Part shown: in pieces, positions 5,703-8,370 of the stretch | How the letters are laid out: every line of letters starts with the position of its first letter | How positions within the stretch are numbered: position 1 is the first letter of the stretch | IMG/VR virus record: IMGVR_UViG_3300027734_000232 | Coordinates: 1 to 30,073 of that record | DNA: 30,073 nucleotides | Source: a virus | Strand: one strand, 5' to 3' | Position numbers and translations under genes: made by a program | Notes under the pieces: generated by a model | The model's database searches: none | Seen by the model: only the letters and a program-made list of their open reading frames with translations | What the model was told of the DNA's origin: nothing

Positions 5703-5849
5703 ATGAAAAAGGGTCTTTACGCCAATATTCATGCTAAACAAGCACGTATTGCTGCTGGTTCTGGCGAGAAGATGAACAAGGTTGGTAGCAAAGCTGCGCC
5801 ATCTGCCAAAGACTTTAAAGAATCGGCAAAGACGGCTAAGAAAAAGTGA
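5703..5849 (+). CDS. Small lysine-rich protein between terminase and portal (48 aa)
   Basis: The ATG follows the terminase stop directly (TAAATG), and the stop overlaps the GTG of the portal gene (GTGA). The product has 12 lysines in 48 residues, starts MKKGLYANIHAKQARIAAG and ends KTAKKK. I recall small proteins of this kind between terL and portal in many podovirus-like phages, without a known role. Its high positive charge would suit binding DNA or an acidic portal surface, which is inference. No membrane segment is seen. Confidence 0.75.
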   Translation: MKKGLYANIHAKQARIAAGSGEKMNKVGSKAAPSAKDFKESAKTAKKK

Positions 5850-8011
5850 GTGATTACACCGGGATTAACGCTGTTGGCAACGTGGCTCTTGGTGGCAAAC
5901 CACTCAAGAGCGACTCGGATGTCTTGTCCACAGCACGAGATCGCCTGTCGATGGCAATTTCGGCGTATTCCGAGTCGCGCGAAGACGAGCTAGACGACCT
6001 GCGTTTCTACGCTGGCTCACCGGATAACCAATGGCAATGGCCAGCAGATGTGCTGGCAACCCGTGGTGCGGTGCAGGGTCAGACGATTAACGCTCGGCCC
6101 TGCTTGACGATCAACAAGTTGCCGCAGCACGTTCACCAGATTACGAACGATCAGCGCCAGAACCGGCCTAGCGTCAAGGTCATCCCTGTAGATGACAACG
6201 CGGACGTTGAGGTTGCCGAGATTTTCAACGGCATGATCCGGCATATCGAGTACATCTCGGATGCGGATGTGGCCTACGATACGGCTTGCGAGAACCAAGT
6301 TGCCTACGGCGAGGGGTACATTCGGATTCTGACTGAGTATTGCGACGACAATACGTTTGATCAGGACATCAAGATTGCCCGTGTACGCAATAGCTTTAGC
6401 GTCTACATGGACCCGCTGATCCAAGACCCATGCGGCAGTGACGCCAAGTGGTGTTTTATCACGGAAGACTTGTCTAAAGCCGAATACGCACGGCTTTTCC
6501 CCAACGCATCGCCATTGTCTACGCTTGAGACGCTGGGTGTTGGGGATCAGAACCTAAGTCAGTGGTTAAATACGGATACGATCCGTATTGCTGAGTATTT
6601 TTACTGCGAATACGACACGCAGACGTTGAATTTGTATCCTGGCAACGTGACTGCGTTCCAAGGAACGCCGGAAGACAAAGAGTTGCGGGCGGTTTACGGT
6701 AAACCAAAGAAGTCACGCCAAGCGGATCGCAAAAAGATTTGTTGGACAAAGATCAACGGCTACGAAATCCTTGAAAAGCAGGAATGGGCCGGTAATTGCA
6801 TTCCTGTTGTGCGGGTAATTGGCAACGAATACGAGGTTGAGGGCCGCATTTACATCAGTGGGCTGGTGCGTAACGCCAAAGATGCCCAGCGGATGTACAA
6901 CTACTGGACTAGCCAAGAGGCAGAAATGCTGGCGCTGGCTCCAAAGGCCCCGTTTATTGGTTATGGCGGTCAGTTTGAGGGGTATGAAACCCAATGGAAG
7001 ACTGCCAACACGAATAACTGGCCTTATTTGGAAGTCAACCCGGATGTAACGGACGGTCAAGGCGCAATATTGCCGCTGCCCCAACGGGCGCAGCCGCCAA
7101 TGGCCTCATCTGGCCTGTTGCAAGCTAAAGTGGGTGCATCGGAAGACATTAAGTCTGCAACGGGGCAGTACAACGCTTCGTTGGGCATGACTTCTAACGA
7201 GCGCTCTGGCAGGGCTATCTTGGCTCGCCAGCGTGAGGGTGACGTTGGTACTTATCACTACCAAGACAACCTAGCACGGGCTGTACGGCACATTGGTCGG
7301 CAATGTGTTGACCTAATTCCCAAGATTTACGACACGCAGCGCATCGCCCGGATTATCGGGATTGATGGCGAGACGAAGATGGTCAAGATTGACCCGACGC
7401 AAGCCGAGCCTGTGCGTAAGATCCAGAATCAAGATGGCGTGGTCATAGACAAGATCTACAATCCAAGTGTTGGCAAGTACGACGTAGTTGTCGCAACGGG
7501 TCCGGGCTACGCCACCAAGCGCCAAGAGGCACTTGAGGCGATGGCGCAACTGTTGCAGGGTAATCCACAACTTTGGACCGTGGCTGGCGACCTGTTTGTT
7601 AAGAACATGGATTGGCCTGGGGCGCAGGAAATGGCAAAGCGGTTTGCCAAGACGATTGACCCCAAGCTCATGGGTGATGCCGAGGACAATCCGGCTCTGC
7701 AAGCTGCCAACCAGCAGATGCAAGCGATGGCGGCAGAACTGGATCAGTTGCATCAAATGTTGCAGAATGTCGGCAAGTCGATGGAAGCGCAGGACATGGA
7801 GCGCAAGGACTTTGAGGCTAAGATCAAGGCGTACCAAGCTGAGACGCAGCGCATTAGTGCTGTTCAGGCTGGTATGTCTGAAGAACAGATTCAAGACATT
7901 GCGATGGGCGTGGTCGCTGCGGCTATGGAGTCGCAGAGTTTGATGAACCAAATGCCTGAAATGCGTGAGGAATCCATGCCGATGGAAATGACACCGGAAG
8001 GTATACAATGA
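5846..8011 (+). CDS. Portal protein, P22 gp1-like (721 aa)
   Basis: The 721-residue length is nearly that of the P22 portal (725). The N-terminal part (about 20-170) carries the family pattern: an acidic helix EDELDDLRFYAG, W-rich NQWQWP, then RPCLTINKLPQHVHQITNDQRQ and a segment ending YGEGYIRI. The C-terminal part (about 620-700) is a long Gln/Ala/Met-rich helix (ALQAANQQMQAMAAELDQL and following), matching the barrel helix that projects into the capsid in P22. Twelve copies would form the DNA channel and the head-tail vertex. The start is GTG, chosen because it overlaps the previous stop and gives the usual N terminus. The C terminus is Met/Glu-rich. Confidence 0.92.
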   Translation: MSDYTGINAVGNVALGGKPLKSDSDVLSTARDRLSMAISAYSESREDELDDLRFYAGSPDNQWQWPADVLATRGAVQGQTINARPCLTINKLPQHVHQITNDQRQNRPSVKVIPVDDNADVEVAEIFNGMIRHIEYISDADVAYDTACENQVAYGEGYIRILTEYCDDNTFDQDIKIARVRNSFSVYMDPLIQDPCGSDAKWCFITEDLSKAEYARLFPNASPLSTLETLGVGDQNLSQWLNTDTIRIAEYFYCEYDTQTLNLYPGNVTAFQGTPEDKELRAVYGKPKKSRQADRKKICWTKINGYEILEKQEWAGNCIPVVRVIGNEYEVEGRIYISGLVRNAKDAQRMYNYWTSQEAEMLALAPKAPFIGYGGQFEGYETQWKTANTNNWPYLEVNPDVTDGQGAILPLPQRAQPPMASSGLLQAKVGASEDIKSATGQYNASLGMTSNERSGRAILARQREGDVGTYHYQDNLARAVRHIGRQCVDLIPKIYDTQRIARIIGIDGETKMVKIDPTQAEPVRKIQNQDGVVIDKIYNPSVGKYDVVVATGPGYATKRQEALEAMAQLLQGNPQLWTVAGDLFVKNMDWPGAQEMAKRFAKTIDPKLMGDAEDNPALQAANQQMQAMAAELDQLHQMLQNVGKSMEAQDMERKDFEAKIKAYQAETQRISAVQAGMSEEQIQDIAMGVVAAAMESQSLMNQMPEMREESMPMEMTPEGIQ

Positions 8012-8370
8012 AGTGCGCGGATTTTGTCGGGCTTTTGTTCTTGGCGCGAGATGTAGCCCATAGCGTACATCTGAACACCCGCAGTTACAGCAAGCACAAG
8101 GCGCTCGGTCATTTTTACGAATTGATTGTTGAAGCGGCAGATGATTTTGCCGAAGCGTACCAAGGTCGGCACGGTCTGATTGGGCCGATTACGCTAATGA
8201 CTGCCAAGAAAACGACTAACATTGTTGAGTTTTTAGAAGAACAGTTGAAAGAAATTGAAGGTTGTCGATACGAGGTTGTGGACAAGACGGATATGTCTTT
8301 GCAACAACTTATTGATAACATTATAGAAATTTACCTTCGTGCTTTGTACCGTCTAAGGTTCTTGGCATGA
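8008..8370 (+). CDS. DUF5856 protein with Dps-like ferroxidase pattern (120 aa)
   Basis: The start has GGAAGG six bases upstream and overlaps the portal stop as ATGA. The sequence is predicted all-helical and matches my memory of phage DUF5856 proteins (HLNTRSYSKHKALGHFYEL; YQGRHGLIGPIT). H18, H30, D45 and E49 are spaced 12, 15 and 4 residues apart. That is the spacing of the ferroxidase ligands of Dps (H51, H63, D78, E82 in E. coli), and DDFAE matches the Dps DxxAE motif. A ferritin-like helical bundle that binds metal or DNA is therefore plausible. It is shorter than Dps (about 165 residues), so one helix may be short or missing. No function is established here. Confidence 0.75.
   Translation: MKCADFVGLLFLARDVAHSVHLNTRSYSKHKALGHFYELIVEAADDFAEAYQGRHGLIGPITLMTAKKTTNIVEFLEEQLKEIEGCRYEVVDKTDMSLQQLIDNIIEIYLRALYRLRFLA

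Follow-up and report, generated by a model that had tools for sequence, protein, structure and literature searches.

DUF5856, a small phage protein family including T4 rI.-1, resembles Dps and keeps an invariant set of putative metal ligands

Dps proteins, such as E. coli Dps, MsDps2 and HP-NAP, are four-helix bundles of 150–170 residues with an H...H...DxxxE set of ligands at the end of helix A, the start of helix B and the middle of helix B. In these proteins, the four residues meet across a two-fold axis. Dps-type proteins are also borne by phages. Gratiaviridae and Lactobacillus phages encode diiron enzymes that are described as members of the Dps family and have been suggested to shield against oxidative damage (PMC8008677), and a further group of phage Dps proteins, including that of Mildred21, is collected in PHROG_3636 under the name ‘DNA binding protein’. 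The family DUF5856 (PF19174) has no assigned function in Pfam and is present in about 1,375 phage records, T4 and its relatives included, whereas its counterpart in PHROGs, PHROG_858, bears the name ‘starvation-inducible transcriptional regulator’. T4 rI.-1, or MobD.6 (NP_049716), is a clear DUF5856 member (5e-33) and, in a review's account of Golec et al., a weak modulator of lysis inhibition (PMC6832632). DUF5856 itself found no mention in the literature searched. Because the family name in PHROGs and RefSeq already implies a link to Dps, the relationship is not wholly new; what is new here is the correct ligand register, the invariance of the ligands, the description of a reduced architecture and the recognition that T4 rI.-1 belongs here too.

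The window, that is, the whole 30,073-nucleotide stretch of viral DNA analysed here (IMG/VR record IMGVR_UViG_3300027734_000232), encodes a DUF5856 protein of 120 residues. Its features are as follows.

5846–8011, plus strand: portal protein gene (P22-like, phrog_156, E = 6.5e-133), given for context only
8008–8370, plus strand: DUF5856/PHROG_858 gene for a Dps-like four-helix protein of 120 residues (open reading frame, PF19174, PHROG_858, AlphaFold2 pLDDT 96)
8014–8076, plus strand: helix A, residues 3–23, with H18 and H21 near its end (AlphaFold2 model)
8059–8061, plus strand: H18, corresponding to K48 of E. coli Dps (profile alignment, conservation)
8068–8070, plus strand: H21, homologue of Dps H51 (profile alignment, conservation, RB49-type model)
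8077–8085, plus strand: A-B loop, shortened by three residues relative to Dps; 20 of 245 sequences, RB49 rI.-1 among them, have the full-length loop
8086–8172, plus strand: helix B, residues 27–55, with H30, D45 and E49 (AlphaFold2 model)
8095–8097, plus strand: H30, homologue of Dps H63 (profile alignment, conservation)
8140–8142, plus strand: D45, homologue of Dps D78 (profile alignment, conservation)
8152–8154, plus strand: E49, homologue of Dps E82 (profile alignment, conservation)
8173–8220, plus strand: B-C loop, residues 56–71, in which the short BC helix known from Dps is missing (DSSP on the model)
8221–8277, plus strand: helix C, residues 72–90 (AlphaFold2 model)
8293–8364, plus strand: helix D, residues 96–119, with conserved D103 and Y114 (AlphaFold2 model, conservation)

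The initial annotation had placed a DUF5856 gene next to the portal gene, and both assignments hold. The protein matches PF19174 with E = 2.4e-18 (67.4 bits, above the gathering cut-off of 34.6) and PHROG_858 with E = 1e-22, and its start shares 4 bp (8008–8011) with the last codons of the portal gene. That annotation had further pointed to H18, H30, D45 and E49, spaced by 12, 15 and 4 residues, as a copy of the Dps ferroxidase ligands. This spacing is indeed present and equals that of H51, H63, D78 and E82 in E. coli Dps (translated from MG1655), and D45-DFA-E49 fits the DxxAE motif of D78-TMA-E82. The strict spacing pattern is uncommon, appearing in 136 of 200,000 shuffles of the window protein. 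Since the pattern was chosen after the fact, conservation across homologues is a better test than shuffling. Elsewhere in the window, amid mostly plus-strand genes, a minus-strand open reading frame (1649–2323) matches DUF7227 (5.6e-74) and Gene product 88 (8.6e-7).

Homologues were gathered by six scans of viral contigs, seeded with single proteins and with alignment A2 (alignment A1 was too divergent as a seed), and by one scan of phage records, which together gave 244 usable sequences. Thinning at 70% identity left 60 of these; alignment A3 holds 67 sequences, with a lowest identity to the window protein of 21%. Five columns are invariant in A3, namely H21, H30, Y37, D45 and E49, and H21, H30, D45 and E49 are identical in all 245 sequences, even in members at 21–25% identity. 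H18 is kept in 236 of the 245; it is replaced by R in seven sequences and by Q in one, all of them divergent members that retain H21, and the remaining sequence is truncated. Three of the four residues first proposed are thus fixed across the family, whereas the invariant first histidine is H21 and not H18. In the two most divergent members (L118:2977-3324 and L120:2989-3339), the four ligands are kept, the C-terminal part is different, and D103 and Y114 are apparently lost. A natural tandem arrangement was sought among the family open reading frames, the longest of which is at most 146 residues, and none was found.

The kinship with Dps or mini-ferritins that the initial annotation had suspected is supported by sequence profiles as well as by the predicted fold and the invariant ligands. 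On its own, the window protein gave a hint only when searched against the PDB, to a Dps-family neutrophil-activating protein at E = 0.49. A profile of 11 diverse members, searched against all PDB sequences, found Dps proteins as its best matches (4evd, 8e-5; 2d5k, 2e-4; 1ji4, 3e-4), and two further family profiles also agree on Dps (5e-4 and 4e-4). Aligned by HHalign to a set of eight Dps proteins, the family reached a probability of 94.6 and P = 6.7e-8 over 110 columns, whereas twelve column shuffles and one reversed profile stayed at a probability of 0.9 or lower, with P of 0.06 or worse for the shuffles. When H18 and the four ligand columns were masked, a largely overlapping stretch still aligned with P = 4.9e-4. 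The phage Dps proteins of PHROG_3636 bridge the two families: that of Streptomyces phage Mildred21 matches PF00210 (4e-11), DUF5856 (7.7e-4), phrog_3636 (2e-40) and phrog_858 (3e-5). Matches to phrog_3636 are also given by E. coli Dps (3.5e-27) and by 40 of the 67 DUF5856 members (best E = 8e-11). The PHROG_3636 member tested passes the Pfam Ferritin cut-off, whereas DUF5856 members do not; the window protein has no match to PF00210, and the two of 67 members that match it (best E = 0.027) fall below the gathering score. At the level of profiles, homology between DUF5856 and Dps is well supported.

Structure prediction, together with a Foldseek search, gave a concordant result. AlphaFold2, run with alignment A3, returned four helices (pLDDT 96.0, pTM 0.89), and the best 50 Foldseek rows against the PDB are nearly all Dps entries; the best of them have a probability of 1.00 and a query TM of at most 0.80, at E-values of 0.05 and above. 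By VIA, the model superimposes on MsDps2 with Z 14.3 and an rmsd of 2.2 Å over 118 residues, and on E. coli Dps with Z 13.1; a Z of 13 is readily attained by helical bundles, and this structural result is therefore weighed jointly with that from sequence. A model of an RB49-type member gave the same Dps-like result. The DUF5856 architecture differs from that of Dps in several respects. The proteins have about 120 residues, most of them have an A-B loop reduced by three residues, and the BC helix found at the two-fold axis is absent from residues 56–71 of the predicted window model and from the predicted RB49-type model. Position 34, where a counterpart of Dps D67 was sought, is mostly G and otherwise Q, E, N, R, K or A; D67 is also missing in one of the eight Dps proteins compared (L256). 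No basic DNA-binding tail was found, as helix A begins at residue 3 in the model, and the proteins are acidic, with a net charge of -3 for the window protein and a family median of -6. Predicted look-alikes in BFVD include entries from crAss-like phages. Two giant-virus entries, A0A7D3V608 (Fadolivirus, 129 residues) and A0A481ZC29 (Pithovirus LCPAC404, 115 residues), are possibly DUF5856- or Dps-like, at 21–26% identity to the window protein.

The register of the ligands bears on which histidine takes the place of Dps H51. HHalign pairs H21 with H51, H18 with K48, H30 with H63, D45 with D78 and E49 with E82; the counterpart of H18 is the first histidine of the HxxHW motif in NapA-type Dps. 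From H21 to H30, the distance is 9 in 225 of the 245 sequences, 12 in 19 and 13 in one. Long-loop members read HxxHFGVTGPGSYAKH (RB49 rI.-1) and HxxHWRVKGEGSFAKH (L236), close to Dps HWNMRGANFIAVH, and in both types the second histidine, the homologue of H21, stands 12 residues before the next one. In RB49 rI.-1, this histidine has the exact Dps spacing of 12, 15 and 4, as it does in the RB49-type protein that was modelled, where it is H36. VIA aligns residues 1–120 of the window model to residues 31–166 of E. coli Dps, which would place 21 on 51 if helix A is gapless. For the RB49-type model, residues 16–132 align to the same range with 117 of 117 residues, and a single offset of 15 kept along both helix A and helix B, in keeping with the sequence spacing, would set H36, H48, D63 and E67 on H51, H63, D78 and E82. 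The pairing of H21 with H51 thus draws on profile alignments and on structural alignment ranges.

Against this evidence, the original form of the proposal, in which H18 is the homologue of H51, is very unlikely. Its appeal lies in the ungapped spacing of 12 between H18 and H30, which is that of Dps, and one HMMER alignment (to 4evd) sets H18 opposite the HWN histidine. However, H18 falls at the Dps spacing because the A-B loop is three residues shorter, the spacing of 12 runs from H21 once the loop has its full length, and eight members dispense with H18 while keeping H21. We therefore rejected the H18 register as contradicted by conservation, the long-loop members and HHalign. Still harder to credit is the idea that the four-helix bundle has no kinship with Dps and owes the resemblance to chance or convergence. 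High structural Z scores do come easily to helical bundles, yet the sequence evidence is independent of them, carries its own shuffle controls and includes bridging sequences, and Dps dominates the top matches of both the PDB profile search and Foldseek.

H30 and D45 lie 15 residues, or about 22 Å, apart on one helix, and a single chain therefore cannot bring the four invariant residues together in a site. Their joint invariance would follow from a site shared by two subunits, as in Dps. We regard it as likely that the window protein is a minimal and divergent representative of the Dps branch within the ferritin-like superfamily, with a metal site shared by two subunits. Helix B would probably be where two subunits pair, bringing H21 and H30 of the first chain up to D45 and E49 of the second, and the resulting site would bind iron or another divalent metal in the manner of a Dps ferroxidase centre. 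During infection, ferrous iron would most likely be bound and oxidised with peroxide or oxygen, which may lessen damage to phage DNA or serve metal or redox sensing. By analogy with Dps, the DUF5856 protein probably binds iron during infection, and ferroxidase activity with protection of DNA is plausible. Because the protein is acidic and lacks a basic tail, DNA binding like that of E. coli Dps is unlikely, and these traits, together with the missing D67 and BC helix, argue against a plain DNA-coating Dps. A more specific proposal is tentative and, in our estimation, has a minor share of the probability: DUF5856, T4 rI.-1 included, would be a phage-specific minimal ferroxidase that forms a dimer or small assembly and not a 12-subunit cage, and would link the iron or peroxide state of the infected cell to phage success and, in T4-like phages, to lysis timing.

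The genomic surroundings of DUF5856 vary with lineage. The gene directly follows a portal gene in 69 loci of about 245 members, mainly in the window's own lineage, these loci having been detected with the window's own portal. In Caulobacter phage GB2A its neighbour is an endolysin gene, in RB49 and T4 its neighbours are rI and tk, and at other loci it adjoins RusA, HNH or methyltransferase genes; portal linkage was therefore rejected as a general rule. Single loci place it after a different portal type (L203), near a virion protein (L228) or between the terminase and head-to-tail connector genes (L086). The Ackermannviridae member of Salmonella phage selz, which is Kuttervirus-like, is named structural protein, and a database note calls phiR1-37 g280 ‘phage structural protein’; g280 finds no mention in the phiR1-37 transcriptome paper or in a 2026 paper. 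Genes for the co-chaperonin GroES occur close to DUF5856 in two phages that otherwise differ (L081:1561-1809 and L085:3407-3598). A prophage origin was not supported, as matches in genome contigs comprised three short MAG contigs with one peptide pattern only.

Two further readings assign the protein other roles, and both are improbable. According to the first, which the initial annotation had raised as conceivable, it is a component of the virion or packaging machinery that resides at the portal or inside the head and acts on packaged DNA. Overlap with the portal gene in the window, the 69 portal-linked loci, the placements in L203 and L086 and the two structural-protein labels lend this idea weak support, whereas the inconstant gene context and the absence of a basic DNA-binding tail speak against it. 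Dps-like domains in BFVD proteins named prohead protease also favour it: such domains appear in three longer uncultured-phage proteins (A0A6J7XDU5, A0A6J7WIS1 and A0A6J7WVS4), two of which bear that name (333 and 432 residues) and would connect such a domain with assembly of the head. The other reading, which we consider no more probable, derives the protein from Dps with the metal site kept for structure or sensing and not to oxidise iron, and has it tune lysis inhibition with RI, RI.1 and RIII in T4-like phages. T4 rI.-1 shares PHROG_858, PF19174 and the invariant ligands with the window protein, as do RB49 and others, but it differs in having a short N-terminal extension and lying in the rI-tk operon. 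As the review summarises Golec et al. (2010), over-expressing it extended lysis inhibition slightly and abolished the slowing of growth by rIII (PMC6832632), and the absence of D67 and the BC helix would suit a non-oxidising metal site. However, the reported effect is slight and was seen on over-expression, most DUF5856 members have no rI neighbour, and RaK2 has a homologue but neither the T holin nor the RI antiholin (PMC3622015). That the ligands are strictly invariant as a complete set, moreover, fits catalysis or real metal binding.

Placing DUF5856 with Dps and naming four invariant residues makes a direct test possible in the model phage T4. If the proposal is true, the few phage Dps proteins reported so far would greatly understate how common Dps-type iron handling is among phages.
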